From positions 1,302,001 to 1,366,000 of the forward strand of contig JACAAK010000005.1 in assembly GCA_025093985.1 (NCBI GenBank): 64,000 nt of DNA, read 5' to 3'. The notes below the pieces were generated by a model. The model had not been told where the DNA came from and did not search any database. It saw only the letters and a program-made list of their open reading frames with translations. Position 1 is the stretch's first letter. The number at the start of each line of letters is the position of its first letter. Below are positions 29,827 through 63,673 of this stretch, piece after piece. The position numbers and the translations under genes are program-made. The stretch comes from Calvatia gigantea (lineage: Eukaryota > Basidiomycota > Agaricomycetes > Agaricales > Lycoperdaceae).

Positions 29827-30480
29827 TGTTACAAACTTACCACATCTCCAGACTCTTCCTGTTATATGCATTACCTTACTTCACAACTGGGCCCAGATTA
29901 TCTCTACCCAGGGAGAGGTTCAACACTATAGTCTAGGAGTATATGACAAGTCTCAATGACTTCTGTGCAGACTTCAGATTGCTCCCTCAAGTAGAAGCTC
30001 ATGCTTGTCTGAAAAGTCTGAGTTAAATGTCACTGCAGTCCCCAAGGTTGTTAACCTTGTAGCAGATGAGTGAAGATAAGAAAGCTTGTTACTAGAATAA
30101 CCTAAGGTAATACAGATGTACTACTTAAGATTTATATACTAGCTACACATAAGGGATGAGTAATTACATAGTAAGAGGGTATAAGTCAATGGGAGACTTC
30201 TATAGGTTAATTGGTAAGTTAAGGAATTATAGGAAATAGAAAAGAAGCAATACAAGTCACAAGAAGATGGAGGCAAGTAGATAGAAGTCTGCTAATGGAA
30301 ATAGAGAAGGTGAAACAGAAACATGACTCAGAATGAGTCATAAGAAGCAGAGGTAAAAGTACATGTGTTAAATAAATAAAGAATGGACCAGGGTATATGG
30401 AAAAGGAAAGAAAAAGAAAAGTCTAATAGAAGGTTAATATGTAGATGGGAAGAGTCTGGGGATGTGGTAAGTTCATAACA
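29827..30480 (-). mobile_element. L2 LTR, minus orientation, with an inverted 33-bp start on its left
   Basis: 29860-30480 is a full L2 LTR on the minus strand. Directly left of it, 29827-29859 is the first 33 bases of an L2 LTR in plus orientation, so the block has 33-bp inverted ends (29827-29859 against 30448-30480). Left flank is C ORF3, right flank is G2 integrase of D; the flanks do not duplicate. Most simply a recombination product between L2 copies. Confidence 0.78.
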
Positions 30481-31394
30481 TACTAACTCTTAGAGATCAA
30501 GATAGCCACTTCAACCACCTGGTATCTACAGACTGATGGACAGACAGAGTGGGTGAACCAGGAACTTGATCAGTACCTCTACCTCTTTGTAAACAAGTGA
30601 TAGAATGACTGGCATGACCTTCTCCTACTTACAGAATTCCAATATAACAACCATGTCCATGCTTCCACCCAACACTCCCCTTTCCTCTTAGACACTGGAT
30701 GTCATCCACACATGGGATTTGAGTTGCATTGGCTACCCTTGAAGATCAAATTGGTTAATGAGTTTACAAAGTGAATGGAGTTGACACTGGAAGAAGTGAA
30801 ATCTGCACTGGTCAAGGTAAAGAATAATATGACCCACTACTATAACCAATGATACACACCCACACCCATATACAAACCAGGTGACAAAGTTTACCTCAAA
30901 GCAGATAACATCCAGACCACCTGCCCATTGAGGAAGCTTTCTTACTAATGCCTTAGACTGTATATTATAAATAAGCAGGTCAATACTAACACCTACTATC
31001 TTCACCTTCTCCGCTCCATACAATGCCTTTATCTGGTCTTCAATGTTGTCAAACTTACACCTGTACCACCCAATCTGATTGAGAACTGCCACACAAAACC
31101 CCCACCCAATCCCATTATTGTCAATAAAGAAGAGGAATGGGAGGTTGAAGAAGTCCTTAACAGCCACATCCATTAAAGATGACTTCAATATCTCATTAAG
31201 TAAAAAGGTTTTGGAATGGAACACAACTTGTGGGAGCTAGCCAATAGAGTCTATGCCCCAGAACTAGTCCAGGACTTCTACCACAAAAATCCTGGTGTCC
31301 TCTGCCTCATCCATGCACTTACCTTCAGCTTACTTCCCTTCCAACCAATCCAGTACCATATATCAAGATGCTGCAATTTTGGAAGGGTGATGGA
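30481..31394 (+). pseudogene. Chromovirus D (family G2) integrase C-terminus and chromodomain
   Basis: Integrase core end (TDGQTEWVNQELDQYLYLF), GPY/F-like region, and a chromodomain with EEEWEVEEVLNS and LQYLIK before GFGMEHNLWEL. Collinear with 40300-41209 in element I. Stops are frequent. Preceded by the inverted L2 LTR; the rest of the element is missing. Confidence 0.82.
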
Positions 31395-35170: not shown

Positions 35171-36289
35171 TTACCCCCCAATTAAGACTTTATGCCTCAG
35201 GAAGTTTGTTGAAATCTCCATGGACTATGGCAGCAGTGATAGCTTTCTTGGTAGATCTGATGAGGTAGTATCCATTATTTGATCATATAAAGAAGATAGG
35301 AATATGGCTGTAGCCATCTTGGCAGATAGAGACTGGAATGCCTTCAAAGGGGAACTCAATTATATTGGAGTTGTCCCAATATGCTTTGACTATTGTTTTC
35401 CAGTATTGTTGGTCCTTCTCTTGGCCTGGCTGTAAGATGTGGAATTGTATGGAGGACACAAAAACTAAGACTATTTGTGGTAGAGAGATTGTTTTGATAA
35501 ACCTATGGAGTACAGTAACTTCTTCCTTAATAGTAAACATGGAGGTATTGATGGGAGTTGGGACTCAGATGGGTTCTTTGACTGCAAGGGTGGTGGTTAT
35601 GGTCTTGTAGAGTTTCCTAAGTATAGTGTTGACATGAATGATAAGGTGTCAGAACAACTCCCAACAGTTTCCCCAGACCATTCCACAACCTCATGCCTTC
35701 ACCTACACTTAGCTGTGTAGACATGAATAACAACTGGAAATCCTAATGGACAATGATGGACTTATGTACATAATGAAACAATAGGACAATGGACAGTAGA
35801 GTAGTATATATTAACCTATACACCTGCAAGGGACTCTTATCTAATTCTCTAAGAATTTCCCCACAGGTATATAGTTTATACACATGTTTGTAATATAACT
35901 AAGGATTCCCCCACAGTTATCCACTTGTCTGCTTTGTCTACCTTGTGAGAGCTTCATGTTCCTAAGCTGCTTGGACTATAGGTTGCCTTTACAAAAGAAT
36001 CAGATCTCATGAGAGACCTAATCTTCCACTAGGAACAATTCTGAGGAGTTTCTCTTGAACACCCCCTATCAGCCAACCCTGTCTCTACCTGCCTGACCCA
36101 CCCCCCATGTTGGACCAGCCCTAACTACAACTATAGCAGATTCAACTGTAACTAGCATAGAATATGTCTTCTCTGGAACAAATACTCACATAGCTGCAGA
36201 ATAGCCTGCAGGAGGTAATAAATTGTTAGGTGGCATCTGAACTGAGAGTCTATGAAACACTCTCATTCTTACAAGGTTAGATCAGTATA

Positions 36290-37289
36290 GTGGCTGCTGT
36301 AAATGCCCCTATTCCCCATATTCCACAACCTCCCACCAACTATACTCCTGCTCCTATACCTCAGCTATACTCCACATTCACCCAGGCCAAAGTTGCCATC
36401 CCATCTGACTTCAATGGAGACTGCTCCAAAGGTCATGTATTCCTTCACTCCTGCCACATCTACCTTCAGTTGTATAAAGATCAGTTTGAGGGTGAAGATG
36501 CCCAGATCTTGTAGGTATTGTCATACATGAAAAGCAGCTGTACAGCAAAGTGGACTGAGAATATAATGCATTGGGAAGAGCAACACCCAGAGCAAACCTG
36601 CTTTCTTGGTTTGGAAGGATTTTTTCACAGAGTTCCATAAGTACTTCTTCCCTGTGAATGCAGAAGCTGCTGCAGTCAACATCCTGGAAGGCACAGGATA
36701 CCACTAGGGCAACTGGAGTATTGATGACTACCTTGACAACTTCCACAACCTTATTTTGGACTCAGGGTACACTGATCTAAAGGTGGTAATAGTTAAATTC
36801 TACTGTGGACTTTGGCTGATGATCTAGAACATAGTAGCTACTATGATCTTAGGATGTCCCCAGGACAACAACACAGAAGGTTGGTATGCCATGGCTCAAT
36901 ACATCAACCAGGTGAGGACTGCCAATGACACCTTCCAGGCCATCACTTGCTCTGACCCAATGTTTTCAAAACCAAAACCCCTCCATTCCCTCTCACTTCC
37001 ACCAGTCACTGTTCTACCTCCACCTGTTTGACATATACCATCTCTTAGCACCCCTACACCCATGGAAGTAGACACCTCTTGCAAACCTGTTTTACTCCTG
37101 CCCATCTGCTACTATTGCAAGAAGGTTAGGCATGTCAAATCTGAATGCTCCCTCAGACATGATGTCTGTCATCTAACAGCAAACAAAGAGGATGACCTTC
37201 TGATAAGACTCCTAGCCAAGAAGGATGTGAGAGAAGCAGCAGACTTGGCTCAAGTAGCTGAAGAAGTAGAAGAAGTGGATTTTTTGTAG
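36290..37289 (+). pseudogene. Chromovirus I gag
   Basis: N-terminus AAVNAPIPHIPQPPTNYTP, then KVAIPSDFNGDCSKGHVFLHSCHIYLQ-type capsid start, several frameshifts and stops, and one CCHC knuckle CYYCKKVRHVKSEC near 37104-37145. Ends EEVEEVDFL at 37289. The start codon is not clear (GTG at 36290 in an open frame; an ATG was probably lost). Unrelated in sequence to G1 gag, which has two knuckles. Confidence 0.78.
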
Positions 37290-37498
37290 AGTAGCAAGTG
37301 GAAAGTACACCCTTCCTATAAAGTGTAAATAGGTTTAGTGTGCTACCTATAAATAAAATAAATGACCCTTCTCCCTCACCTGAACCTGAACTGAAAGCTG
37401 CACTATAGAAAACCTCAATACCTTACCATTCTAAATAGAAAAGATGCCTTCTACCCAAACTTGTCATAGCTATACTAGACCAATATGGGACTTCACTT

Positions 37499-40400
37499 AT
37501 GCTGCAAGTGGAACTGGAGACTACAGATACAGTAGAATGCCATAGCATATATACTCTTGTAGATAGCGGTACAACCTGCTCCTTTATTAACCAAGACTAT
37601 GTGTGGACCAACAAACTCAATATCCATATACTCTCTTACCTGCTTACAGTCTATAATGTCAATGGATCAGAAAATAAGGCTGGTTGGATAACAAAAGTCA
37701 TAGACATTATTCTCCACTACTGCAACTACTTGGAACACTCTCTGCTTACAGTTACTGGACTTGGCCACCAAGACTTGCTTCTCAGATACACTTGGCTTAA
37801 ACAACATAACCTTGATATCAACTGGCAGACAGGTGAAGTCAAAATGTCCCAATGCCCATCCAAGTGTGAAGAGTGCAAGGTTGAAGCCAAAGCTAAGACC
37901 TATGTCCTCCCACCTCCAGGCCCACTGCATCTGTGCCTGTATCCTGGGCTCCTTTTCTGCCTTAGTAAAGAAGTGGAAGAACAGGACAATTCACCTGCTC
38001 TGCTACCTGCTTCCACAGATTTCTATAAGGACAATGACTGAATCTTTACTTTCAATCTCCTTTCTTGTCTAGAAGAGATTCATGCAATAGGTACCATATT
38101 CCAGTGGCTAGCTGAGGCCTTCCACCACAACTCCCAGTTATTTGACTTATCTACTGGATTTAGAGAAATTATCCCTTTTTACCTCTATAACTTCAAAGCT
38201 GTATTCACCAAGGAGTCCTTTGACTGCACTATCTGAGCATCAACTATGGGATTATGTGATTAAGCTCATCCTAGGTATTAATGCAAAAGGCTGCAAGATT
38301 TACTTACTTTCACCCACTGAGCAGTTGCAGTTGGATGAGTTCATCCAGGAGAACTTCTTATCTAGCTGCATTTGCCCCTCTAAATCCCCTATGGCCTCAT
38401 CTATCTTCTTTATCAAGAAGAAGGATAGATCTCTCCATCTCATTTAAGACTACTGTGCTCTCAATGCCATTATAGTGAAAAACAAGTACCCCCTCCTGCT
38501 TATATCTGAACTCATTGTACAACTTTGTGGGACTAAGTACTTCACTAAATTGGATGTTCACTGGGGATTCAACAACATGCAGATTAAGCTGGGTGATGAG
38601 TGGAAGGCTACATTCCAGACAAATTACAGATTATTTAAACTACTTATCATGTTCTTTAGCCTTACCAATAGCCCTGCCATCTTCCAAACTATAATAAATG
38701 ATATTTTCTGCAAGCTCATCATGGAGGGCATTGTTGTGGTGTACATGGATAACATTCTAATCTTCACTAAAACTAGTTGAAGAGTACCAAGAAGTTACCT
38801 GCTGGGTCTTGCAAATTCTTGAACAGCACTAGCTTTTCCTTAAACCTGAAAAGTGTGAGTTTGAGAAAACCTGCATTGAGTACCTCAGTCTCATCATATT
38901 AGAAAATAGTGTTGAGATAGATCCAGTCAAAGTTACAGGGATATAAGACTGGCCTACTCTAACTGTATGGGAGAAATACAGGCATTCCTGGAGTTTGTTA
39001 ACTTCTACTGCCACTTCATCTGTAACTTCTCCCACATAGCATACCTACTCTTTGACCTTACTAAGGTGGATACCAAGTGGAAATAGAGCACTGTGGAAGA
39101 AACAGCTTTCTAGGCACTTAAGGACACAGTTACCTCCTTCTCTATTTTCCTCTCACCCAACAACTCCACTCCCTTCTATGTCAAAGCAGATAGCTCAGAC
39201 TTTGTGACAGGTGTGGTTCTCTCTCAGAAGGCAATAGGCTTGGACCAATGGCACCTAGTGGTATTTTACTTGAAACTCCTCTCAGTAGTCAAACAAAATT
39301 ACAAGATCCACAACAAGGAAATACTGGCAATCATCCACACACTAGAGAAGTGGAGACACTTCCTCAAAGGCACACACTACCAAATTGAGATCTAGACAGA
39401 CCACAAAAATCTAGAGTACTTCATGTCCACCAAGAAACTTAACCATTACCAAACCCACTGGCCTCTTGTACTCTCCTACTTTGATTTCTGCTTGTGCTAT
39501 TGCCCTGGCCAAACTATGGAGAAACCCAATACACTGTCCTACTGAGCTGACCACAGCATAGGAGCCTACAACAACAAGAACATCACCCTCCTTCCTAACA
39601 GACTTTTTGTCATCTATATATTCAAAGGGATTTTGATGGAAAGAAAGAAGCAGCTCCTATTGAAGGATATCTGCTCCAGAAACTATACAGGTGAACAAGA
39701 GGAGGCAGTTGCTAAAGCCATATGGGAACTCAAGCAGTCATTGACCAAGACTGTGAGGAGTATAGAATGGACAGAGCAAGATGGTCTACTCCTGTTCTGA
39801 GAGAAGATCTATGTCTTAATGGGCTCTGATCTTAGGTGGAGAATAGTGGCTCTCCACCACAACACAAAGATTGTAGGATATGCTGGGTAATGGAAAATGC
39901 TAGAACTCATCTCCTGCAACTACTGATGGTCCCAGATGGCTTGATACATTGGTCAGTACATCTCTACCTGCAACCTTTGCATACACACCAAGCCTATCCA
40001 CCAGCCACCACAAGGAGAACTCCACCTGCTCCCTATCTCTGAAGCCCACTGGGATACATTCAGTATAAATTTTGTGGTTGAACTCCTGGAATCTGCAGGC
40101 TACAATACCATCATGACAGTAGTGGACTTTGTCTCTAAATAAGCCCACTTCATCCCAACCCACACTACTGTTTTAGTTTTAGCTAAGGGTGTAGTATGGC
40201 TCTTCCTTCACAATGTCTGGAAACTCTATAGACTCCCCAACACCATTGTTTTGGACCATGGACTACAGTTCATTGTTATGTTCATGAAAGAGCTCTACCA
40301 ACTCTTAAGGATCAAAATGGCCACCTCAACTGCATAGCACCCACAAATCAATGGACAGACAGAGCAGGTGAACCAGGAACTTGATCAGTACCTCCACCTC

Positions 40401-41150
40401 TTCATAAACAAGCAACAGAATAACTGGCATGATCTCCTCCTACTCACAGAATTCCAACACAATAACTATGTCCACACTTCTATCCAACACTCCCCCTTTC
40501 TTTTAGACACTGGACATTATCCATACATGGGATTCAAGTTATGTCAGCTGCCCTCAATAGTCAAATCAGTTAACAAGTTTACAAAGCAAATGGAGTTGAC
40601 ACTGGAAGAAGTGAAATCTGCACTGATTAAGGCAAAAGATGACATGACTTACTACTATAACCAACAATGCACACCTATACCCATATACAAACCAGGCAAC
40701 AAAATTTACCTTGAAGTGGACAACATCCAGATTATCCACCCATTGAGAAAGCTTTTTCACTAATACCTTAGACCATACATCATAGACAAGCAGGTTAATG
40801 CTAATGTCTACTATCTCTGCCTCTCCTGCTCCATACAATGCCTCTACCTAGTTTTCAATGTCATCAAACTCACACCCACACTATCCAATCTAATTGAGAA
40901 TCACTGTACAAAACCCCCACCCAATCCCATCACTGTCAATAAAGAAGAGGAATGGAAGGTTAAAGAAGTCCTTAACAGCTATGTCCACTGAAGACAACTT
41001 CAATATCTCATCAAGTGGAAAGGCTTCAGAATGGAACACAACTTGTGGGAGCCAGGCAACAGAGTCTACACCCTGGAACTAGTCCAGGACTTCTACCACA
41101 AAAATCCTGGAATCCCTTGCCTTATCTGCACACTAACCTTCAGCTCACTT
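37499..41150 (+). pseudogene. Chromovirus I pol: PR, RT, RNase H, integrase, chromodomain
   Basis: Protease YTLVDSGTTCSFIN in a 180-codon open frame (37499-38041). RT in 38142-38780 with YFTKLDVHWGFNN and YMDN for the catalytic YMDD (G-to-A at the second Asp). RNase H HNKEILAIIHTLEKWRHF at about 39330. Integrase with HHCC remnants (CNLC), first acidic residue read as Asn (DTFSINFVVEL), the second in VLDHGLQF, Glu in QVNQELDQYLHLF; open 40368-40763. Chromodomain EEEWKVKEVLNS to LIKWKGFRMEHNLWEPGN at 40941-41060. Clearly dead. Confidence 0.87.
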
Positions 41151-41209
41151 CCCTTCCAACCAATCCAGTACCATGTATTGAGATGCTGCAATTTTGGAGG
41201 GGGGGTAGA

Positions 41210-41556
41210 TGTCAGGACAACTCCCAATGGTCCTCCTGGACCATTCCATAATCCTACATCCTCATCTGTACTCAGCCACATAGACATGAATAATAACTGG
41301 AGATTCCAACAGATAATAATGGACTTACATATATAATGAAATAATAGGACAATGGACAGTAGAGTAGTATATATCAACCTGTACACCTGCAGGGGACCCT
41401 TATCTGATTCTCTAAGAATTCCCCCACAGGTATGTAGTCTGTACACATGTTTGTAATATAACTAAGGATTCCTCTGCAGTTATCCACTCATCCACTTTGC
41501 CTGCCTCATGAGAGCCTCATGTCTCTGAGCTGCTCAGACTATGGGTTGCCCTTATA
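41210..41556 (+). repeat. 3' LTR of chromovirus I (L3, 347 bp), with TATA box and inferred start
   Basis: TGTCAGGACAACTCC to TTGCCCTTATA (last CA mutated to TA). TATATAT at 41368-41374, and 34 bases on the ATCTGATTCT at 41402-41411 that pairs with the primer-binding site. The partner 5' LTR is 35647-35993, with ATCTAATTCT at 35839-35848. Confidence 0.88.
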
Positions 41557-42053
41557 TAAGATTAGTAAAGGTAGGATCTTCCAGGGTGGGGTTTTAACCA
41601 AGTAGGTTGGCTACTATATTTTCTAATTCTAGAAAGGTTTTGATGATATCTATGCTTCCAAATACTTGTAGAGCCAGGTCAATTCAGCTCTAGAGGTTGT
41701 CAATACAGACTTGTTTATCACTGGTAAGAGATGATTGGTTTAGGGCATGGAAGATGGAAGAGATGTGTTGTTTGGTAGAGGTGGATGTATTGGCAAACTT
41801 TTTATACATGTCAGCAAAGGTAACACAAGCTGTGGTAAGAATGGTAAGTTTATTAATATTAAGTCTTTAGTTCTGGGCAGTGATAGTGGTTAACTTGGTG
41901 TTGGTAGCATTGTCGATGTCCTTGAGTAGAGTCTCAAGTAGTCCTTAGGCTGGCAATGAGGTGGTGGCCATATTGAATCATATGTCTCTTAGAATGGGAG
42001 CTTTGTTGTTTCCTAGTTCTGACATAGGTACTGATAAGGTGGTAGTAGGGTTG

Positions 42054-42358
42054 TGTTATGGTTTTCCACCAATTAAGTCATACTCCATCATCATCTACAT
42101 TCCTGTCTACTAGTACATCTGTTTCAGTTATTCCTGTTAAGTGATCTCCATCTATGACTCATGTTAACTACTATGCCAGCCTGATCAAATGTTTCATGTA
42201 GTTACTCCATCCATTCAACTGGATGGCTTCCTGTATTTAAGCATACATACATCCACTGTATTTGGTATGCTTAACTATCTCTGTTCTCTTCCTCTTATTC
42301 ACCCTCAAGACTTAGCCTAAGCTGCAACCTGAGGTCCTATCTGACTAAGGTCGTAACA
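42054..42358 (+). repeat. 5' LTR of chromovirus E (305 bp)
   Basis: TGTTATGG to GGTCGTAACA. TATTTAAGC box at about 42234, then ATGCTTAACTA (one C-to-T against the primer complement). Followed by TT and TGGTTAAGCAT. Confidence 0.9.
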
Positions 42359-42441
42359 TTTGGTTAAGCATCCCTACCTCACCTTGCAAGGAATAGGCTG
42401 AAATAGGCCTGAACAAGACAAGACAACCTAGAAGCTAGTAT

Positions 42442-43584
42442 ATGAGCTCAAACCCAGATAAATATAGAGAACCAAATCTTGAAGTCACTGATAATGAATC
42501 TGAAACATCAGACAAAGAAGAAACAGGGAACCCCAAAGTACCTGAAGAACCAACTAGAGGAACACATAATGAATCCAGAGCAAACCCAGCAGAAGAAGAA
42601 ATATTATTAGAACTTCTAAACGAACTCGACCTAGTAGAGAAAGAGTTAATCCATCAGGAGAACCCAGAACAGGAGAAATCAGATGAATCAAGCTCGGATG
42701 AAACAGAATCAGAAACCAACTCTGATATGACCAATAATGCAGTGGTATCCACAATGGCACCCAGTGGAAAAGGCTTAGTGCCAGACCTGGGATTTTTTGA
42801 TGGCACCCACACCAAATTCGACAATTGGTGGAGAGCAATGATGCTCTTCATGAAATTCAACAAAATAGTCTCAGCAGATGACAAGGCTATAGCAGTCTTA
42901 GCCAGACTAAGAGGAGGGACAGCAGAAGTCTATGTGGCCATAAAGGCCCCACAAATCTTAGATGGAGAAGACTTGGTAGATTGGAAAGCATTCTCTGAGG
43001 ACTTTAAGAAAACCTTCTCCAACAATGCTTTGAATAGCAAAGCAGAATGGCAAATCAAGAAATTCAAACAAGGGAACAAAAACACAGCTGACTACCTAAT
43101 CGAGTTCCAAGTCCTAAAGAGCAAAGCAAAAACAGACAACAAACATCTAATGTTCCTGCTCAAGAAAAATGCTAGGCAGGACATCATTCATGCCATCATG
43201 GGCTACCCACCTAGTGCCAGACCAGACACCTATGCAGAATGGACAGAAGCCATTCTTGCTATGGGGCAAGGGTACAAGGCATTAGAATACCGAGGAGATA
43301 AGAAAACCAACACTGGAACAACCTATAGAGGAATGGGAGAACCAATGGAGATAGGCAGCAGACATCACATCTTCAATGCAAAAGAGGAACCAAAATGCTA
43401 CAATTGTGGTGTTTTTGGCCACATTGCCAAAGACTGCAAGAAGCCCAAAGGGCTAACCTGTTACAACTGTGGAAAAATGGGTCACATCACCAAAGTTTGC
43501 ACTACACCCAAGAAAGTACAAATCTGAGCAGTAGAGGAAGCCAGCCCAGGAGAACAGAAGGATTTCTCTGAAGACTCTGAGTAG
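42442..43584 (+). CDS. Chromovirus E gag
   Basis: ATG at 42442 ([15 protein letters not shown]). 361 codons open to a TGA at 43525-43527, which other copies lack; the ancestral end is FSEDSE plus TAG at 43582-43584. Acidic N-terminus (~120 residues), capsid-like centre ([39 protein letters not shown]), two CCHC knuckles [14 protein letters not shown] and [14 protein letters not shown]. The best preserved G1 gag in the window. Pol follows in the -1 frame from 43581. Confidence 0.87.
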
Positions 43585-44269
43585 GTGCTACCTCGCGAGT
43601 CAAACAACCTGTATCTAGGATATCAGAAAAATACTACATGATTCCTCAGAAACGAAAGCACAAATTAAACCTAAAGGGGACCATTCAAACTCCAGACAAA
43701 AAAATCACAGTTGACATCATCATTGATTCAGGATGCACCACCAGCAGCATCAGCAAAAAAATTGTAGATGAAGAATGAATCCCCATGAAAAAACTAAAAC
43801 AAGAAATCATGGTCCTCAACACTGATGGGACAACAAATCAAGGAGGAAAAGTTACAGAAACTGCCACTATCGAGATGGAAATCAAGGGACACAAGGAGAC
43901 AATTGAAGTATCAGTAGTTCAACTCCAAGACAGAGCAGAAATATTCCTAGGACACGACTGGCTGAGCAAACATAATCCTGAAGTGGACTGGAAAAAAGGA
44001 GAAATCAAATTCACCCAATGCCCACTGGACTGCCATTTTCTACACCAGAATATCCAGGTCACCCAAAAAATCTGAGGCATGGCTGTCACAGAAGATATAT
44101 GGGAAGAAGAGGATGAACTGGACCTGACTGAACCAGCCAATCTACTAGACTACATTCAGCCATTCACACATCTGTTCAATAAAACAACCTTTGATAAGCT
44201 ACCACAATGAACAGAATGGGACCATGAAATAGTTCTAACTGAAGATGCACCCAAAGAAATAAGTGCCGG

Positions 44270-45593
44270 TAAAGAGGCAGAGATAAAGAGGCAGGAATAG
44301 AATACTAAATGTGATATGGATGTATGGCTTAGATTAAGCTGACAGAATAGATATTTAAAGATTTCTGCACAAGGCAAGTTCATGGGGAGGCAATCTGACA
44401 ATATGAGGGACAATTCCACAAAATAACATGAAACAATGACACATAGAGAACACCAGAATAACTAGCTACCTTCGCTAAGAAGAGTAAGGCCAAGTTGCAC
44501 TTGTAAAAAGCACAACTTGTGTTCCTTATCTAAGAAGTTAACAAGACACAGAACCTCAGGTACTCCCTAAGATTCACCCTTATCAAGTCAATGACTAGAA
44601 GCACACTGTCCTATACTTGTGATACTCCAAGTACCAGGGTGTAGCAATGCAATATGCTCTTAATCTAAGCTCACTTCGCAAGTAAGCTGAGGTCTTCTTC
44701 TTAGATTACAAAGGTCTCAACCTTAGCTCAAGTCACTTAATCCAGTTAATCTTGAAAGAACTTATTACTTTGCTTCGCTCAGGCACAATAAATCGTTTTT
44801 CACTGTGCTCTGAAGGCTGGGCAATGGCTAGTAGGTTCCTTGCCATGTCCGACTACCTCAGAGGGGGTTTATATATTATTTGGGTGCTCGTTATGACAAG
44901 ATAATGATTACACAACTAGGAACATATTATCAAGCAAGGTACAAACTGGTAGATTAGATCGTGCGCCAAGAGAGCCACAACCTGTTAGATTAGTGAAACA
45001 TTGGAAATATAGAAGGATTCCAGGTATCCATTTGTTCCGGGCTGTGTTTTAGCCCATTCTCTGGGTCTGCATTCTTCTCTAAATATGTAGAACATCTAAG
45101 ATTTCAGATGTTGTGTGAACTGTTCTCCTACATGTCCCTGTGGATTGTACTGTGAATGCGTCCATATATGTCATTAGTACTGAGTGATGTTTGTTAATCT
45201 AACAACGGTGGCATTTCCTTGTGAGCACGCCGATCATCCTTTTAGATTAAGCATGTCAGACTTATTTCCCAAGTCTAGGCTCATTGAAGGGGTCCTGTAG
45301 CTCTGTATAGATACATTGGAATGGTTTTACTGCCTGGTCCAGCTGGAATCATGACTGGTCATATGGTACACTATTAGGATTGCTTTTTGTTAAGCACAGT
45401 GGTCATTCCATAGCCGCTGCTATCCTGTCATCAATGGCCATAGTGTTCTACAGTGATTGAGTACTCTTTTATTATACTGTTGGGCTCTTAGATTAGGTCA
45501 TACTACTACAGGAAGATTCAATGCAATCATTAGATTAGGCTTGTATGCCTTAGATTAGTGATTTTCATGTGTAAAAACGGCTTTGCCATTACA
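44270..45593. mobile_element. Unclassified element X, copy X2 (1324 bp, TSD CCGG)
   Basis: TAAAGAGGCAG... to ...TTTGCCATTACA with CCGG at 44266-44269 and 45594-45597. Removing the element and one CCGG restores the E reading frame ISAGTYNM. It starts with a short tandem copy of its own first bases. No ORF of note, no terminal inverted repeat beyond a few bases. More CpGs than X1, so younger. This is the cleanest copy. Confidence 0.85.
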
Positions 45594-46245
45594 CCGGAAC
45601 ATATAACATGACAGTCAAGGAACAGGATGAGCTTAAAGCATTCATCAAGGAAAATCTCGAGTCAGGACATATATGGCCATCAAAATCCCCATATGCAGCC
45701 CCCACCTTCTTCATACCCAAGAAAGATGGTTCGAAACAGTTAATCCAGGACTACAGGTAACTAAACAATGTAGTGGTAAAAGACAAAATGCCACTGCCCA
45801 GAATCAGAGAAGTAATCAACAAGTTGGGAAAGGTGAAATACTTCAACAAACTTGACATCATTTGGGGATATAACAATATTAGAATTAAAGAAGGAGATGA
45901 ATAGAAAGCAGCATTTTTGACCAATGAAGGATTGTTTGAACCAACTGTAATGTATTTCAGACTAAGCAACTCACCTGGGACATTCTCTAGGATGATAACC
46001 AGTATCTTCTGAGACCTGCTGCAAAACAGAGACATTGTGAACTATATGGATGACTTTGCAATCCCAGGAGATACCAAGGAACAGCTAAGAGAAAGAATGG
46101 TATGGTTTTTGACACGAGCAGCTGAGTACAACCTCTACTTTAAATGGACAAAGTGCATATTCAACACTGAAGAAATTCCTATATTGGGAGTAAAAATAGG
46201 ACATGGACACATTGAAATGGAAGAAGAAAAAGTCAAGGCAGTATG

Positions 46246-46873
46246 TGTTACGTGCGTTACCTTACTTCGCAACTGGGCTCGGATCGTCTCCACTCAGGGA
46301 GAGGTTCAACGCTATAGCCCAGGAGTATTCGACAAGTCTCAATGACTTCTGTGCAGGCTCTGGATCGCTCCCTCGAGTAGAAGCTCACGCTTGCCTGAGA
46401 AGTCCGAGTTAAGTGTCACTGCAGTCCCCAAGGTTGTTAGCCTTGTAGCAGACGAGCGAAGATAAGGAAGCTTGTTACTAGAATAACCTGAAGTAATACA
46501 AAGTACTACTTAAGGTTTATATACTAGCTACAAATAAGAGATGGGAGATTACGTAGTAAGTAGATATGAGTCAATGAGAACTACTACGGGTTAATTGGTA
46601 ATCTGAGGAGTCATAGGGATAGGTGAAATGAATACAGAAGAACGAGTATGAGTCATAAGAAGATAGAGCCAGGTAAGGAGAAGTACAATGGCAGGAAAAG
46701 ATGAAGGTGAAACAGGAACATGATTCAGAATGAATCATAAGAAGCAGAGGTAGAAGTACATGTGATAAATAAATAAAGAATGGACTGGGGTATACAGAAG
46801 GAATAATAGAAAGTCCGTTGAGAAGGTTAATACATTAGTTCGGAGAGTTCGGGGATGTGGTAAGTTCATAACA
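46246..46873 (-). mobile_element. L2 solo LTR in chromovirus E pol (628 bp, TSD GTATG)
   Basis: Flanked by GTATG at 46241-46245 and 46874-46878. CpG-rich in its left third (plus coordinates), unlike the L2 copies at 29158, 29860 and 51816, so it is the youngest L2 insertion. Removing it rejoins RNase H. Confidence 0.9.
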
Positions 46874-49078
46874 GTATGAGACTGGCCTGAACCCAAAAAC
46901 AAAAAAGAAGTAGAATGCTTTCTAGGCTTTGCTAATTACTATTACCAATTCATCAAAAACTTCAGTAAAATTGCGGCCCCCCTTAACCAGCTCAAAGGAG
47001 CCACTGAATAGAACTGGGAACAAGAACACCAGTCAGCATTCAACAAACTAAAATGACGAATCACCAAAGAACCCACCTTGATGCTGCCACAAAGGAAGGG
47101 GCAATTTCAAGTAGAAGTTGATGCCTCAAACTATGTACTAGGAGGAGTCCTATTACAGGAACAAGACAAGAAATGGCATTCAATTGCATTCACATCATGA
47201 ACACTTTCCCCAGCAGAACGAAACTACAAAATTTATGACAAAGAATTACTGGCCATTATTCATGCCCTAAAAGAATGGCGACATTACCTACTGGATGCAG
47301 AGGAGAAATTCGAAATCTGGACTGACCACGAAAATCTCAAATACTATAGAGAACTACAAAAACTCAATGGATGACAAGCAAGATAGTACTTAAGATTACA
47401 AGACTATGACTTCATGCTACAACATGTACCAGGCAAGACAAACACAAAAGCAGACCTGCTATCCAGAATTTGCCAAGAGCCAGATGAAGAAAATGACAGA
47501 CTAATCACTATGATCCAAGAAAGTTGGCTACAAGATAAACTGGAAAACGAAGGAAATTCTGAAGAGACCATCCTACTCTGTGCAGAACTATTCATCATGC
47601 CAATATTCATGGACCAGATAAAGACAAACCACCAGAGAGATACAAGCATCACTGCCGGGCTTCTAAACAAAGAGTCCAACATCATAGAACACAATGGAAT
47701 AGTCTACAAGAAAGCTAGCATGTACATACCACTGGACCCCATACTCCACGAAGAAATCCTACAACAATACCATGATGCACCAGATGCAGGACACCTGGGA
47801 CAACATAGGATGGTCGAACTAATCACCAGAGATTACTGGTGGCCATCAATATGAAATGATGCCAGGAAATACATCAAAGGATGTCAGAACTGCCAAAGGA
47901 ACAAACCTCACATAATACTATTAAGGACACCACTACACCCACTCCCAATACCTAATGGGCCATGGGAAGAGATAAGCATCAATCTTATTGGACCACTACC
48001 AGAATCAGAGGGAAAAGATGCCATCTTGGTAGTTGTCAACTGGTTCACAAAAATGATATGACTCATACCAACAAAAACAGACATATCCTCGAAGGGAATC
48101 GCACAACTTTACAGGAACAAAATATGGAAGCTACATGGGGTACCACAGAAAGTCCTTAGTGACTGAGGACCACAGTTCACATCAGAATTCACCAGAGAAT
48201 TGTTCAAGAGATTAGGAATAGAATGAGCCCTATCAATAGCCTATCATCCCCAAACAGACAGACAAACAGAACAAATCAACCAAGAAGTCGAAACATACCT
48301 TTGCCTTTACTGAAACTATGAACAAAACAACTGGGCAAATTGGTTGTCCATGGCCAAATTCCAGTACAATGACAAAAGACACAGCAGAACACAGGAAACA
48401 CTGTTTTACCTCAATTACAGATGACACCCCTGGAAAGGAAAAGACCATAGAGCAACAAACAACCCCAGTAGTACTGAGTTCCTGAAACAACTACAGACTG
48501 CAAGAGACAACTCCACAGCAGCACTACAATCATATCAAGAAAAGATGAAACAAACCTATGATAACAGCAAGCTGCACATAACATAATATCAAGCCAGTGA
48601 TGAAGTATGGCTAGAGAATGCAAACATCCATACCAATCAGCCATCAAAGAAGCTAGGCCAGAAAAGGTATAGGCCTTTCCAAATCAAGGAGAAGATAGGA
48701 GAAGCAGCATATCGGCTCACATTACCAGAAGGATGGGCCATCCATAATGTATTTAATGAACAGCTGCTAACCCTGGTGTGGAAAGTGGCATTTCTGAGGC
48801 AGCAGAAACTGCCAGTGCCTGAGCCAGTGATCATCAATAATGAAGAAGAATACGAGATAGAAGAGATCCAAGGATAATGAAAATGGGAACAGGGATATCA
48901 GTTCCTAGTACACTGGAAAGGATATGACAACAAGAATAATATGTGGATGGTGGAGTCAAACCTGACAAATGCTCAAGATGCAATAGCAGATTACCAAAAG
49001 AGGCATCTGGAGGATACCTATAAAAAGAGGGGCAGAAAAACCAAAAAGTCATCACCCAGCCAAAGAAATTAACCAGAC

Positions 49079-50066
49079 ATACCTTCCTCCCAAGCCAACT
49101 GTGTTACTATCTGCTCCCTCATCCATCCCAACCCAACCACAATCTCCTCCATTCCCCTCCCAGAACCAGGCAGTAGCCAAGCATTTGTACCCCAAGGCAC
49201 TCGCTACAACCTCACCACCACACTGCCCCCAGCACAGGCGCTTCTTGAATCTCTACTAAAAGACGTCAACAAAGCCACCAACAGTGAGATAGAAACCATT
49301 ACTGCCAAAAACAAGCAATTAGGCATCAACTGACACATTGCCCTTGCTACTGCATGCATTACCTTCACTGACATGTACACAGGGTTCACCAATGCATCTT
49401 CATCCACCAATCAGCACATTCCTGCCAGCTTCCGGGCCCTAGACCAATCCACACTCACACCAAGTGAACAAGACCATGTCTACAGCCTCCACAATTACAT
49501 CAACCTCAGACAGACTTGAAGTATTCAAACACCTTGATATTGCTGACATATTCCTAGAGCTTGCCAATGTAGCCATAAATCTACTCAGATGCGACAAGAC
49601 TACCGAGGATCCAGAAATCAATACCCTTGCTGACAGAATCCACAGTACCCTTTCTGAATTACACAATACAATCAACCCCATGCCACTGACCTGAGCTGAC
49701 ACACCTATGGACAAAGAAACTACTGTTTCTATAAAAGAAGAAGTCAACTTCCTCTGCTGTTTCATAAAAACCATTACTCCACCACAACTCATATCAGTTT
49801 TTCTCCTATCTGCAAGGTTCCGCACTGTATTACCAGGCCAAGAAAAGGACCAACACTATTGGAGGATGATAGTTAAGAGCTACTGGGACAACTCCAGCAC
49901 AACTGACTTCCCATTCAATGGCATCCCAGTCCTTATCTACCAGAACAGACAAAGCCACTTACCCGTCTTCTTTGCATGGTTAAACAATGGAAAATATCTC
50001 ATTGGAGCCACCAAGAAAGCCCTCACCTTCACTGTAGTCAATGGTGACTTTGACAAAGCTTCCTGA
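49079..50066 (+). pseudogene. Chromovirus E ORF3, unassigned third ORF
   Basis: Start ATA (49079-49081) where other copies have ATG, six bases after the pol stop. Blocks: ICSLIHPNPTTISSIPLPEPG, LLKDVNKATNSEIETITAKN, ACITFTDMYTGFTNASSSTNQ, frameshift near 49515, then open VFKHLDIADIFLELANVAINLL, ADRIHSTLSELHNTINPM, stop, then a 119-codon open C-terminus (TPPQLISVFLLSARFRTVLPGQ, HYWRMIVKSYWDNSSTTDF, HLPVFFAWLNNGKYLIGA). Ends 25 bases before the 3' LTR. No similarity that I recognise. Confidence 0.82.
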
Positions 50067-50091
50067 GGCATGAAGCCAAATCAGGGGGTAT

Positions 50092-50396
50092 TGTTATAGT
50101 TTTCCACCAATCAAGTCATACTCTGTCATCATCTGCATTCCTTTTTACTAGTATATCTGTTTCAGTTATTCCTGTTGAGTGATCTCCATCTATGACTTGT
50201 ATTAACTACTATGCCAGCCTGATTGGACGTTTCATGTAGTTACTCCATCCATTCAACTGGATGGCTTCCTATATTTAAGCGTACATACATCCACTGTATT
50301 TGGTATGCTTAACCATCTCTGTTCTCTTCCCCTTATTTGTCCTCAAGACTTAGCCTAAGCTGTAACCTGAGGTCCTATCCGACTAAGGTTGTAACA
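50092..50396 (+). repeat. 3' LTR of chromovirus E (305 bp)
   Basis: TGTTATAG to AGGTTGTAACA, preceded by the polypurine tract AGGGGGTAT. Retains ATGCTTAACCA. TSD GGTTG follows. Confidence 0.9.
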
Positions 50397-50454
50397 GGTT
50401 GGGATGGATAAGGGAGGTAATTAAAACACAAGTAGATTGTCTAGTAGTAGGCAT

Positions 50455-57313: not shown

Positions 57314-57618
57314 TGTTGTGAACTTTCACCAATCATATCGTGTTCCTTATCCATCTACATTTCCATCCCCTGTGTACCTGTTTCAGCTATTTCCTACCAA
57401 GTGATCTCCAAGTATGACTCCAACTAACTACAATGCCATCCCTACCAGACATTTCATGTAGTTCCCCATCCATTCAACTGGATGTTCCTGTAGTATTTAA
57501 GTGTACATACATACTCCTGTATTCAATATGCTTAACCACTTAGTTCCTCTCCCCTTACTCGCCCTCAAGTCTTAGCCCAAGTTGCAACCTGAGGTTAACT
57601 CAGACTAAGGTCATAACA
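57314..57618 (+). repeat. 5' LTR of chromovirus H (305 bp)
   Basis: TGTTGTGAACTTTC to GGTCATAACA. TATTTAAG at 57494-57501 and ATGCTTAACCA at 57528-57538. Confidence 0.92.
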
Positions 57619-57631
57619 TTTGGTTAAGCAT
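57494..57631 (+). promoter_or_regulatory. TATA box, inferred transcript start and self-priming PBS of H
   Basis: TATTTAAG begins at 57494; 34 bases later lies ATGCTTAACCA (57528-57538), the expected start of the RNA. The LTR ends at 57618, then TT, then TGGTTAAGCAT (57621-57631), the exact reverse complement of that 11-mer. In Tf1-type retrotransposons the first ~11 nt of the RNA pair with the PBS and, after cleavage, prime minus-strand synthesis. Start site and priming are inferred. Confidence 0.72.
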
Positions 57632-57697
57632 CCCCACCTCACCTTGCAAGGAGTAGGCTGAAACAGGCCTGAACAGGAGTAAACCAGGAGCTAGTAT

Positions 57698-58815
57698 ATG
57701 AGCTCGAACCCAGACAAATACAGGGAACCAAATCTCAAAGTCATTGATGATGAGTCTGAAACATCAGACGAAGAAGAAACAGGGAACCCCGAAGTACCTG
57801 AAGAAACACATGACAAACCTGGAGCAAACCCAGCAGAAGAAGAAGTATTATCAGAACTTCTAATGAGCTCGACCTAGCAGAGGAAGAACCAATCCATCAG
57901 AAGAAATCAGACGAATCAAGCTCAGACAAAACAGAATCAGAAACTGGCTCCTGACATGACTGACAATGCAGTAGTACCCGCAACAATGCCCAATGGGAAA
58001 GGCCTAGTGCTGGACCCAGGATTTTTCGATGGCACCCACACCAAGTTCGATGACTGGTGGAGAGCAATGATGCTCTTCATGAAGTTCAACAAGATAGTCT
58101 CAGCAGACGATAAAGCTATAGCAGTCCTAGCCAGACTACAAGGGGGAACTGCAGGAGCATATGCAGCCATGAGAGCACCAGCCATCCTGGAATCTGAAGA
58201 CTCAGTAGACTGGAAGGTCTTCTCCGAGGAATTTAGAAAAACCTTCTCAGACAATGCCTCAAACAGCAAAGCAGAATGGCAGATCGAAAAATTCAGACAA
58301 GGAAACCAAAACACCTGCTGACTACCTAATCGAATTCAAGGTATTGAAAAGCAAAGCCAAGACCGATAGCAAACATGCCATGTTCCTACTTAGGAAGAAC
58401 ACCCGACAAGATATTATACATATGATCACTGGCTATCCACTCTCAGCCAGACCAGACACATATGCAGAATGGAAAGAAGCCATACTTTCCATCAGACAAG
58501 GATATGAAGCATCTGAATACTGAGGAGACAGAAAAACAAACAGTAGTATCCACCTATGGAGGAATGGGTAAACCCATGGAGATAGGAAGTAGGCATCACG
58601 TCTTCAATGACAAAGGAGAACTGAAATGCTACAATTGCGGCATTTTTGGTCATATTGCCAAAGATTGCAAAAAGCCCAAGGGGTTAATATGCTACAACTG
58701 TGGTAAAAAGGAACACATAGCCAAAGCCTGCACCACACCCAAGAAGATCCAAGTCCGAGGAATAGAAGAGGCCACCAATGAAGAAGGGAAGGATTTTTCT
58801 GAAGACTCTGAGTAG
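57698..58815 (+). pseudogene. Chromovirus H gag
   Basis: ATG 57698 ([15 protein letters not shown]). A one-base loss near 57862 and an indel near 58310 shift the frame; a TGA follows EASEY. Two intact CCHC knuckles, [14 protein letters not shown] and [14 protein letters not shown], in the last open frame (58462-58815). Ends FSEDSE, TAG 58813-58815. Confidence 0.85.
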
Positions 58816-61800
58816 GCACTACCTCAAGAGTCAAAAAGCTTGTATCTAGGATATCAGACAAATTCTACATGATTCCTCAGAGAAGAAAGCGCAAACTAAA
58901 TCTAAAAGGGAAAATACAAATGGCAGGAAAAGAGATAACAGTCAACACCATCGTAGACTCAGGATGTACAACCAGCAGCATCAGCAAAAAACTAGTAGAT
59001 GAAGAAAGACTCCCTACCCAGAAATTGGAACAACAAATTTTGGTACTAAATGTGGATGGAACACCTAACCAAGGTGGAAGAGTAATGGAGACCACCACAA
59101 TCAACATCGACATCCAGGGACATAAGGAACAAATTGAGGCCTCAGTCGTACAACTACAAGACAGGGCAGAAGTCTTCCTAGGATATGATTGGCTAGTCAA
59201 ACACAACCCGGAGGTAGATTGGAACAACAGAGAAATCAAGTTCACTCGATGCCCACCAGGCTGCCAATTCCCCCATCAGAACATTCCTATCACTGAAAAA
59301 ATACAAAGCATAGCCACTACTGGAAGACCTATGGAAGGAAGAAGACGAACCAGACCCGACCAAACCAGAAGACCTACCAGACTATGTACAACCGTTCATG
59401 CACTTATTTAACAAAACAACATTCAACAAGCTCCCAGAATGAACCAAATGGGACCATGAGATAGTCCTAACTGAAGATGCCCCAAAAGAAATAAATGCAG
59501 GGACATACAACATGATGGTCAAAGAACAGGATGAACTCAAGTCATTCATCAAGGAGAACCTAGAATCGGGATGAATACGACCATCAAAATCCCCATATGC
59601 AGTACCAACATTCTTCATTCCAAAGAAAGACAGATCCAAAAGGCTAATCCAAGACTACAGATGACTAAACAACATGGTAGTCAAAGACAAAACACCATTA
59701 CCAAGAATTGGTGAAGTAATTGACAAGCTTGGAAAAGCAAAATACTTCAACAAGTTGGACATCATCTGGGGATACAACAATGTCAGGATCAAAGAAGGAG
59801 ACGAATGGAAAGCCGCCTTCCTCACCAATGAAAGACTCTTCGAACCAACAGTCATGTATTTTGGCCTAAGCAACTCACCAGGAACTGTTCTCCAGAATGA
59901 TGACAAGCATCTTCCATGACCTCTTACAAAACGGAGATATTGTAAACTATATGGATGACTTCACCATCCTGGGAGATACCAAAGAGCAACTAAAAGAATG
60001 AACAATACGATTTCTGGAATGAGCAGCCCAGTACAATTTATGCTTCAAGTGAAACCAAGTGTATCTTCAATGTGGAAGAAATCCCAATGCTAGGAGTTCA
60101 AGTAGGACATGGACGAATCGAAATGGAAGAGGATAAAGTAAAATTGGTACAAGAGTGGCCTGAACCCAAGAATACCAAAGGGGTAGAAAGGTTCCTGGAT
60201 TTCGCAAACTACTATCAGTGTTTCATCAAAAACTTTAGTATGATTGTAGGGACCCCTAAACAAACTCAAAGGAGCAGCCACATAGGAATGGACACAAGAG
60301 CACCAAGGCTCGTTCAACCAACTCAAAAAATGTATCACTGAAGAACCTGTCCTGACATTGCCACAAAGGCATGGCCAATTCAGAATAGAAGTCGATGCAT
60401 CAGACTATGCATTAGGAAGGGGTACTCTCACAGCTACAAGAAGGCAAATGGCACCCAATTGCTTTTACATCGCAAATGCTGTCACTGGCAGAATGGAACT
60501 ATGAAATATATAACAAAGAGTTGCTAGCCATCATCCATGCCCTGAAGGAATGGAGACACTACCTCCTAGATGCTGAAGAACTGATTTGAAATCTGGACTG
60601 ACCATGAAAATCTCAAGTATTACCAAGAACCACAGAAGCTAAATGGATGACAAGCACAGTGGTATCTGCGACTGCAAGACTATGACTTCATGCTATGACA
60701 TGTATCTGGAAAGACAAACACGAAAGCTGACCTACTATCCCGAATCCACCAAATGCCTGAAGGACAAGAAGATAAACTAGTCACTATGATCCGAGAAAGC
60801 TGGCTACAGACAGAAGGCACAGACAGCATGGTACTCTTGCAAGCAGAATTGTTCATCAAACCAAACTTTCTAGAATGAATTTGAAGCTGAACCCAATGAG
60901 AAACAACAGTCCTAACTGAACTAAAGAAGCAAGGATCCCAACTCACCGAAGATGGTGGAGTTATCTACAAACAGAATAGCGCATACGTCCTGCCCAACCA
61001 GAAACTACAAGAAGAAATCCTAGTACAATACCATGATACCCCAGATGCAGGACACCTAGGACAATACAGGATGACAGAACTAATCAGCTGAGACTACTGG
61101 TGGCCATCAATACGAAAAGATGTAAAAAGATATATCTGAGGATGCCAAGCCTGCCAAAGAAACAAATCAAGGACAACGCCGCTCAAATTGCCACTACACC
61201 TCCTTCCAATACCAAATGGACCTTGGGAAGAAATCAGTGTCGACATAATCGGACCACTGCCAGAGTCTAAAGGAAAGGAACGCAATACTAGTCATCATAG
61301 ATCACTTCACAAAAATGATACAACTCTCAGCAACAACCATGGATGCCACATCTAAAGACATCGCAAAAATATATTGAGACAAAATATGGAAGTTACAGAT
61401 TACTGAGGAAAGTACTCAGTGACCGAGGACCTCAATTCGCATTAGAATTCACCAAGGAGTTGTTCAAGGGACTCGACATCAAACGAAATCTATCAATGGT
61501 GTATCATCCACAGACAGATGGACAAACCGAATGCATCAACAGGAAGTGGAAACCTACATCCACCTGTACTGCAACTATGACCAGAACGACTGGGCAGAAT
61601 GGCTCCCCATTGCAGAATTCCAGTACAATGACAAGCAACATGGAGGAACACAGGAAACACCATTCTTCCTAAACTATGGAAGGAATCCATGGAAAGGCAA
61701 GCACGAACTGACAACAAACAATCCCATTGCCACAGCATTCCTGGAACAATTACAGGCTGCCTGAGACAATGCCTCATCAGCACTACGGACATACCAAGAA

Positions 61801-62340
61801 AAGATGAAACAGCAACACAACCACAGTAGAACCCATGCCAGTATATATCAAATAGGAGATAAAGTATGGTTGGAGAACACCAACATCCATACCAATCAAT
61901 CATCAAAAAAGCTAGGCCAAAAACAGTATGGACCTTTCCTTATTAAGGAAAAGATAGGAGAAGCAGCATATTGGCTGACACTACCAGATGGATGGGCCAT
62001 CCATGATGTATTCAATGAACAACTCCTGACACTAGCACACCAGGCAGAGTTCCTGAGTCAAAAACAACCATCAGCACCCAACCTGGTGATCATCAACAAT
62101 GAAGAAGAGTATGAAGTGGAAGAAATCTGCAGACAACGAAAATGAGGAAGGGGCTATCAATTCCTGGTCCACTGGAAGGGGTACAGCAATGAAGAAGATA
62201 TGTGGACAGCGGAGTCCAATTTGGAAAATGCAAAAGATGCCATAAGAGACTACCTAAAAAGGCATCCAGAGGATACCCATAAAAGAGGGGGTAGAAAACA
62301 CAAAAAAGCATCAAACAAACAACCCAGACAGAGAAACTAA
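58812..62340 (+). pseudogene. Chromovirus H pol: PR, RT, RNase H, integrase, chromodomain
   Basis: Opens in the -1 frame as gag stops. Protease TIVDSGCTTSSISKKL at about 58950; RT YFNKLDIIWGYNN and VNYMDDFTIL near 59943-59968; RNase H near 60500; integrase finger CQACQRNKSRT, core SVDIIGPLPES, VLSDRGPQFALEF, and the Glu region disturbed by a small deletion at 61540; GPF region and chromodomain YQFLVHWKGYSNEEDMW near 62155-62210. Frameshifts near 59330, 59885, 60055 and others, plus many TGA stops. Stop TAA 62338-62340. Confidence 0.88.
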
Positions 62341-62346
62341 ACAGAT

Positions 62347-63350
62347 ATGCCTGCCTCCCAATCTAACCGTATCGCTATTGACTCCCTTGTCCACCCCACA
62401 CCCACCAGAATCTCCTCCCTCCCATTCCCTGAACCAGGCAACAGCCGAGCACCTGCTCCCCAAGGAACCCACTATAACCTCACAAAGACACTGTCCCCAG
62501 CACAAGGCCTCCTTGAAGTCCCTGCTCAAGGATGTTGATAAAGCAACCAACAGTGAAATCGAGAACATCACCACCCAAAACAGACTGACTAGTTGTAAAC
62601 CGACATATTACCCTTGCCACCACATGCATTACCTTTGCCGACATGTATGCAGGGTTTACCAACGCATCTTCCTCTACCAACCAGCATATCCCTGCACTAT
62701 CTTCCAAGCCCTAGACCAATCTACCCTTACCCCCAGCGAACAGGGATCAGGGTCCAAGGACTTCAAAGCCAAATCGACTTAAGCCTCGAAAGTCTTCAAT
62801 CACCTCGACATTGCCAACATCTTCCTTGAACTTGCAGATGTAGCCATGAAGTTACTCAGAAGAGACAAAACAAATGAAGACCCCAATATCAACACCTTGG
62901 TTGACAGGATTCACATCACCCTCTCCAAACTACGTGACACTGTCAACTCCATGCCACCAACCCAAGCTAATACCCCCATGGACGAAGAAACCACAGTTTC
63001 CATGAAAGAGGAAGTCAACACCCTTCATCATTTCATAAAAACCATCACACCACCACAGCTTGTATCAGTTTTTCTTCCATCCGCAAGATTCCTGCACTGT
63101 ACTGCCAGGACAAGAGAAGGACCAACACTATTGGAACTCGATAGTCAAGAACTACTGGGACAGCTCCACCACCACCGACTTCCCATACAATGGCATCCCA
63201 GTCCCTATCTGACAGGACTGGACGAAGCCACTCGCCCGTCTTCTTAGTGTGTTCCAACGAAAGGAAAGTTCCTCATCAGCCACCACTAAAAAAGCACTCA
63301 GCTGCCTATGGTAGTAAATGGAGACTTCGAATGAGCTTCCTGAGGCATAA
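62347..63350 (+). pseudogene. Chromovirus H ORF3, unassigned third ORF
   Basis: ATG 62347, six bases (ACAGAT) after the pol stop. Starts MPASQSNRIAIDSLVHP. Frameshifts break it near 62515 and later; blocks ACITFADMYAGFTN, ALDQSTLTPSE, VFNHLDIANIFLELADVAMK, VDRIHITLSKL, MDEETTVSMKEEVN, PQLVSVFLPSARF and QHYWNSIVKNYWDSSTTTDFP are readable in shifting frames. Ends ELPEA and TAA at 63348-63350, 18 bases before the 3' LTR. Confidence 0.8.
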
Positions 63351-63368
63351 AGCCTAATCAGGGGGTAT

Positions 63369-63673
63369 TGTTGTGAACTTTCACTGATCATATCGCATTC
63401 CTTATCTGTCTACATTTCTATCCCCTGTGTACCTGTTTCAGCTATTTCCTACTGAGCAATCTCTGAGTATGACTCCAACTAACTACAATGCCATCCCTAC
63501 CAGACGTTTCATGTAGTTCCCCATCCATTCAACTGAATGTTCCTGTAGTATTTAAGCATACATACATACTCCTGTATTTGGTATGCTTAACCACTTAGTT
63601 CCTCTCCCCTTACTCGCCCTTAAGTCTTAGCCCAAGTTGCAACCTGAGGTTAACTCAGACTAAGGTCGTAACA
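63369..63673 (+). repeat. 3' LTR of chromovirus H (305 bp)
   Basis: TGTTGTGAACTTTC to GGTCGTAACA, preceded by AGGGGGTAT (63360-63368). Where it differs from the 5' LTR, CA in one often faces TG in the other. Confidence 0.92.

Follow-up and report, generated by a model that had tools for sequence, protein, structure and literature searches.

A third open reading frame (ORF3) in the Calvatia gigantea genome, located between the pol gene and the putative polypurine tract of a Ty3/Gypsy retrotransposon, is probably a real third gene, belonging to a single chromovirus lineage. Judged from its sequence, it would encode a soluble accessory protein, likely translated by reinitiation, with a role in the cycle of the element. 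ORF3 was identified in a 64,000-nt stretch of DNA (the window), and further copies were then compared across the genome assembly.

Location of ORF3 in a chromovirus element

The element that hosts the ORF3 copy under study has the following features, in coordinates of the window:

57314–63673, plus strand: Ty3/Gypsy chromovirus element hosting ORF3, with an LTR pair at both ends
57314–57618, plus strand: 5′ LTR, 92.8% identical to 63369–63673
57695–58812, plus strand: gag region, seen from frames with two CCHC knuckles; the frames are broken in this element
58812–62337, plus strand: pol region with integrase and chromodomain at its end, seen from reading frames and the related locus L065; the frames are broken
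62338–62340, plus strand: pol stop codon TAA in the sequence, in the same frame as the ORF3 start and two codons upstream
62347–63350, plus strand: ORF3, the putative accessory protein gene, from sequence and protein comparison; this copy has indels and stops
63360–63365, plus strand: purine run AGGGGG in the sequence, putative polypurine tract
63369–63673, plus strand: 3′ LTR with TG...CA termini, from sequence and pairing with the 5′ LTR

The element at 57314–63673 is a chromovirus (Ty3/Gypsy, Metaviridae), as it has an LTR pair, a Gag with CCHC knuckles, and an integrase joined to a chromodomain. A related gag copy at 42442–43524 matched the Pfam families Retrotrans_gag (E 2.8e-07) and zf-CCHC (E 1.5e-12), and the related locus L065, whose integrase region is 61.7% identical to that of the window element, matched rve (1.7e-09), SH3_Tf2-1 and Chromo (1.1e-14). 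ORF3 is flanked by the chromodomain on one side and by the purine run at 63360–63365 on the other, in sense orientation to gag-pol, which agrees with the initial annotation, where the ORF had been placed between pol and the polypurine tract. In this element ORF3 is not open: indels and in-frame stops have scattered it over several frames.

Nucleotide and protein searches of the window recovered six more copies or pieces of ORF3, at the places where they had been reported by the initial annotation:

18523–19511, minus strand: ORF3 copy, 84% nucleotide identity
25744–26680, plus strand: ORF3 copy, from sequence search
28002–28144, plus strand: ORF3 fragment, from sequence search
28702–29157, plus strand: ORF3 copy from a diverged subfamily, cut off after its first 152 residues (63% over this length)
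35193–35645, minus strand: C-terminal part of ORF3 of the most diverged subfamily, S5 (47% identity)
41555–42049, minus strand: central part of S5 ORF3 (49% identity)
50401–50454, minus strand: probable N-terminal part of S5 ORF3, weak when taken alone (E 4.5) and adjoining the end of S5 pol
49079–50057, plus strand: ORF3 copy of subfamily S3, in which ATA replaces the ATG start

The three minus-strand segments between 35193 and 50454 together make up one S5 copy in three parts. Beyond the break in the copy at 28702–29157, a 16-residue ORF3 piece at 29787–29834 was weakly matched (E 0.26). The sequence blocks are colinear among the window copies, as had been claimed for about seven copies or pieces. 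The wording of the motifs TFTDMYTGFTN and HLPVFF, described earlier as common to the copies, depends on the subfamily: the copy at 62347–63350 reads TFADMYAGFTN, and its HLPVFF block is garbled.

The window also contains a second, about 30% identical, integrase lineage at 30490–31293 and 40110–41102, with a chromodomain-like stretch noticed by eye; the window search found no ORF3 match directly after these two integrases. Two other regions, 2361–3782 (minus strand) and 9365–12113 (plus strand), contain Exo_endo_phos_2 and RVT_1 domains and have a LINE-like look, and an RVT_2 match is located at 10884–12113.

Distribution of ORF3 in the genome

All ORF3 copies described here come from a single genome (45.95 Mb, 77 contigs). 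When this genome was searched with three ORF3 probes, 662, 679, and 626 candidates were obtained, of which the best 150 were scored for each probe; because each probe gave at least 150 scored matches in the same genome, a chance origin of the similarity is excluded. At least 51 distinct places, chosen by eye from the best-150 lists of the three probes and then checked for distinctness, had an open frame of 324–359 codons around the match, with no stop within it. For 21 of these 51 the full sequence was retrieved and inspected. An open frame does not always mean an intact gene, because among these 21 the L068 copy has ATA in place of ATG, as does the window copy at 49079, L076 is without the usual in-frame start, and the frame of L073 slips locally. 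The locus L063:376-3799 (G000:C34:4122500-4126300) contains two near-identical open ORF3 copies on the same strand, 2.4 kb apart, so arranged that element ends stand in tandem.

The copies fall into at least four subfamilies that were compared: S1, which includes the window copy at 62347, S2 with many open copies, S3 with the copy at 49079, and S5, which consists of the window minus-strand copy at 35193–50454 together with L080 and L081. ORF3 was found in all four. S5 is the most distant of them, with 45%–50% identity to S1 in ORF3 and 63% identity to S2 in the integrase region.

In most copies ORF3 is an additional ORF on the gag-pol strand, in sense orientation, within the interval between pol and the polypurine tract. 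When 87 pol matches obtained with a distant-relative query were compared with an incomplete list of ORF3 matches, irrespective of strand, 71 had a listed ORF3 match at most 4 kb downstream. Five of the other 16 pol loci were fetched: one had an intact-looking ORF3 of 330 codons, two kept the first 164 or 46 residues of ORF3 and then broke off, and ORF3 was absent from the remaining two.

Selection on the ORF3 protein

The dN/dS ratios were calculated by the Nei-Gojobori method for 47 copies and expressed as medians per pair of groups, with S1 treated as two groups and the diverged copy at 28702 left out. Forty-five of the 47 copies were picked because their frames had 240 codons or more, some of these frames having short unrelated ends, while the two S5 copies carried stops, which were masked. 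The data showed medians of 0.111–0.159 within and between S1, S2, and S3, medians of 0.200–0.242 for these subfamilies against S5, and a value of 0.231 for the single S5–S5 pair. When codons affected by CpG were dropped, the respective values were 0.099–0.161, 0.234–0.262, and 0.231. For four between-subfamily pairs and one S2 pair the ratios were 0.101–0.132, with bootstrap limits within 0.067–0.184.

Three controls were compared with these values. The integrase and chromodomain regions of the same elements gave ratios of 0.142–0.245 (1–30 pairs a group). Simulated neutral drift of one ORF3 under varied transition and CpG biases gave medians of 0.53–0.86 (60 runs each), with the lowest single run at 0.25, which touches the values obtained against S5. 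The two shifted (wrong) reading frames gave ratios of 1.22–1.78. Hence, on the evidence of these codon comparisons, selection appears to have maintained ORF3 with a strictness similar to that seen for the adjoining integrase.

Because the 45 long-frame copies favor constraint, the calculation was repeated for 37 copies not picked for openness, each with 1–7 in-frame stops. This set consists of four window copies and 33 loci, with the window copy at 62347 doubled as L001, and is only a partial answer, because the 33 loci are a non-random set from the top matches to that window copy. The median dN/dS ratio was 0.113 (range 0.059–0.437, 665 pairs); it was 0.276 among the 18 closest pairs (dS <0.25) and 0.100 among the 409 far pairs (dS at least 0.6). 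The higher ratio in close pairs is as expected for constraint on the mobile lineage that is relaxed after insertion. A scan along the protein, covering all of ORF3 except the last 30 residues, showed the weakest constraint at the N-terminus (ratio 0.42) and at residues 179–208 (0.50).

These data uphold the proposal of past purifying selection made in the initial annotation, with medians of 0.11–0.16 within S1–S3 and of 0.20–0.26 against S5, with or without CpG masking; ratios near 1, which would have spoken against it, were not observed in either case. They also bear on the explanation that ORF3 is a passenger, that is, a captured host or foreign sequence whose protein is not under selection. 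The lack of a relative outside the element (see below) is compatible with a captured orphan, but the medians between subfamilies (0.10–0.26) are below those of simulated drift (0.53–0.86), and ORF3 is also present in S5, diverged as its integrase region is, which makes capture of a passenger extremely improbable.

As a separate observation, the in-frame stops of the listed ORF3 copies are, by eye, mostly TGA, and 16%–37% of the differences within S1–S3 touch CpG, which suggests CpG decay through methylation or a RIP-like process.

The pol–ORF3 junction

To compare the region upstream of ORF3, 62 distinct pol–ORF3 junctions were gathered by a pattern that permits only M, I, or V as the first residue. 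In 56 of them the last in-frame pol stop is located exactly two codons (6 bases) before the ORF3 start. Five junctions have no stop within the 15 codons inspected, and the last one, with a stop nine codons off, is a chance match of the pattern to the minus strand of the window. The stop is TAA in 35, TAG in 20, and TGA in one of the 56 junctions, and both the base after the stop and the two codons between the stop and the ORF3 start vary. Within the limits of the pattern (M, I, or V), the start is ATG in 59 of the 62 junctions, and by eye 61 have a purine at position –3.

This arrangement could be explained by read-through of the in-frame stop, in which case ORF3 would be a C-terminal extension of Pol, a tail on the integrase/chromodomain protein. 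The fact that the pol stop and ORF3 share one frame, two codons apart, in 56 of the 62 junctions would fit such an extension. On the other hand, the stop alternates between TAA, TAG, and once TGA, the following base is variable, and a switching stop codon with a variable next base is unusual for programmed read-through. The prevalence of ATG starts with a purine at –3, next to two intervening codons that are free to vary, also argues against a continuous Pol–ORF3 protein. Read-through is therefore improbable, even if less so than the other alternatives considered in this work. A spliced ORF3 mRNA would be another route; by eye, the junction rows contain no invariant splice-acceptor AG upstream of the ORF3 start, and an intron of several kilobases is unusual in fungi.

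Reinitiation after pol is preferred over read-through because the spacing is constant while the stop codon changes. Termination-reinitiation calls for a restart codon only a few bases away from the stop, and such a codon is found at a distance of 6 bases in the 56 junctions. In this mechanism the full-length element transcript would serve as the ORF3 mRNA, the ribosomes would terminate pol translation two codons upstream, and a fraction of them would restart at the ORF3 ATG. Judged from the junctions, the chances that this is the route of ORF3 expression are about evenly balanced.

Properties of the ORF3 protein and search for relatives

The ORF3 protein has about 328 residues, a mass of about 36 kDa, and a pI near 6, as calculated for two proteins. 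In both of them residues 1–50 form a basic tail rich in proline, serine, and threonine, which is followed by an acidic middle and by a C-terminal part in which the motifs are most readily recognized. Two AlphaFold2 models had mean pLDDT values of 38.2 and 46.5 and were mainly helical, so that the acidic middle is predicted, with low confidence, to be mainly helical.

In neither of the two proteins did a segment reach the usual membrane-helix level, the highest 19-residue Kyte-Doolittle means being 1.28 and 1.42. This bears on the explanation that ORF3 is an env-like gene with a product acting at the membrane. In favor of it is the location of ORF3, in sense orientation after pol and before the 3′ LTR, where env and env-like ORFs are found, as described in a review of plant elements (PMC7264820). 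The low hydrophobicity, an N-terminus that by eye is polar and rich in proline, serine, and threonine, and the absence by eye of an invariant splice-acceptor AG before the start all point the other way. Hence, the env-like explanation is disfavored on hydrophobicity and is very improbable, consistent with the earlier remark that ORF3 lacks a membrane segment and is not a typical env.

The searches for relatives of ORF3 gave no convincing match in any of the collections used. Pfam gave no convincing match with single proteins and, with 19 members, returned three families at E 0.043–0.14 that were judged to be chance matches, and no dUTPase, RNase H, esterase, or exonuclease domain was among the Pfam matches of the 19 members. 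With three ORF3 proteins, no match was found in NCBIfam, and the best match in PHROGs (E 0.066) was judged to be due to chance. Among PDB sequences the best E value was 1.4 for one protein and 0.038 for a profile, the latter for a designed protein and also judged to be chance. Foldseek with the second model (pLDDT 46.5) found nothing at E 0.001 in the PDB and viral models, so that the predicted fold points to no function.

A search of 5.8 billion proteins, which reaches only relatives sharing short exact words, found no ORF3 relative with one sequence (E up to 0.01) or with eight (E up to 1). None of 82 pattern matches to ORF3 in viral contigs and none of 49 in prokaryote genome contigs was confirmed. 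Most of the material in these collections is of prokaryotic, viral, or metagenomic origin, so that they test absence elsewhere only weakly. In the same 5.8-billion set the integrase region had 2733 relatives, with a best identity of 74%, while it had no viral-contig relative; the few named ones were from Armillaria, Agaricus, and Candolleomyces. The number of integrase relatives means that fungal chromoviruses are represented in the protein set, where short contigs could hide ORF3.

The comparisons also included Gag, as ORF3 could be a diverged duplicate of Gag or of another capsid-like protein and form part of the particle. Its middle is predicted with low confidence to be mainly helical, like capsid domains, but no similarity to the Gag tested was found (best E 1.0), nor a Pfam gag or zinc-knuckle match, nor a fold match with the low-confidence model (pLDDT 46.5). 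A Gag duplicate was thus set aside for lack of sequence similarity to the Gag tested, and is rather improbable, although not to the degree of the env-like explanation.

The view of ORF3 as a novel accessory protein of this lineage, put forward in the initial annotation, gains support from the dN/dS ratios and from the lack of a convincing database match. A known domain, or capture by one subfamily only, would have counted against it; the searches returned no convincing domain match, and ORF3 is present in four subfamilies.

Comparison with other additional ORFs in LTR retrotransposons

Third ORFs are known in LTR retrotransposons, while the ORF3 protein family itself is apparently undescribed, as no description of the protein was found in the open-access subset of the literature. 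An additional ORF, unknown in function, is shown in the drawings of some fungal Gypsy elements (Novikova 2010, PMC2864245); it resembles ORF3 in belonging to such elements, and the passages concerned give neither a sequence nor a selection test nor a description of it. Vicient and Casacuberta (2020, PMC7264820) review plant LTR retrotransposons with sense additional ORFs in the interval from pol to the 3′ LTR. ORF3 shares with them its position and orientation and the fact that most family members carry it, while the sense ORFs described there are env-like and some have membrane segments, of which ORF3 shows none. The fungal example given in the same review, Boty, has an additional ORF in antisense, in contrast to the sense ORF3 (PMC7264820). 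In a Botrytis paper one passage concerns additional ORFs (PMC8365987), and in a Laccaria transposon paper none of the four terms sought was present (PMC3411680).

Two animal systems show that third proteins can have other functions. The CERV protein of Cer1 in C. elegans is a novel extra LTR-retrotransposon protein, which acts in nuclear export of the element RNA (PMC10309623). It is a model for a non-envelope role of ORF3, likened by description and not by sequence, and it differs in being made from a spliced mRNA. In bdelloid rotifers the LTR retrotransposons have a set of ORF3s with diverse functions, several of which are not envelope-like (PMC5408684). These include a GDSL esterase, a DEDDy exonuclease, and one env-like glycoprotein (PMC5408684), while no domain was recognized in the fungal ORF3.

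Possible role and significance of ORF3

The function proposed for ORF3 lies in the element's own cycle, where its product could be a partner of the RNA, of the Gag particle, or of the pre-integration complex; alternatively, it could shield the element against host silencing, and an envelope function is not proposed. The protein may be a soluble cofactor that assists in exporting the RNA, assembling the particle, integrating the element, or evading silencing, although any single one of these classes is unlikely when taken alone. A bolder and rather unlikely possibility is that ORF3 represents an undescribed family of essential chromovirus cofactors, whose translation restarts at a fixed distance of 6 bases from the pol stop and which act, for example, in RNA export or in countering fungal genome defense.

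LTR retrotransposons are usually thought to need gag and pol alone. In this genome a third protein is under constraint similar to that on integrase and has an open frame in dozens of copies, yet none of the collections tried recognized it, which makes ORF3 a direct test case for the function of a non-envelope third gene in a fungal retrotransposon. If ribosomes do restart in this way after the pol stop, polycistronic expression would be a further strategy of fungal retroelements.
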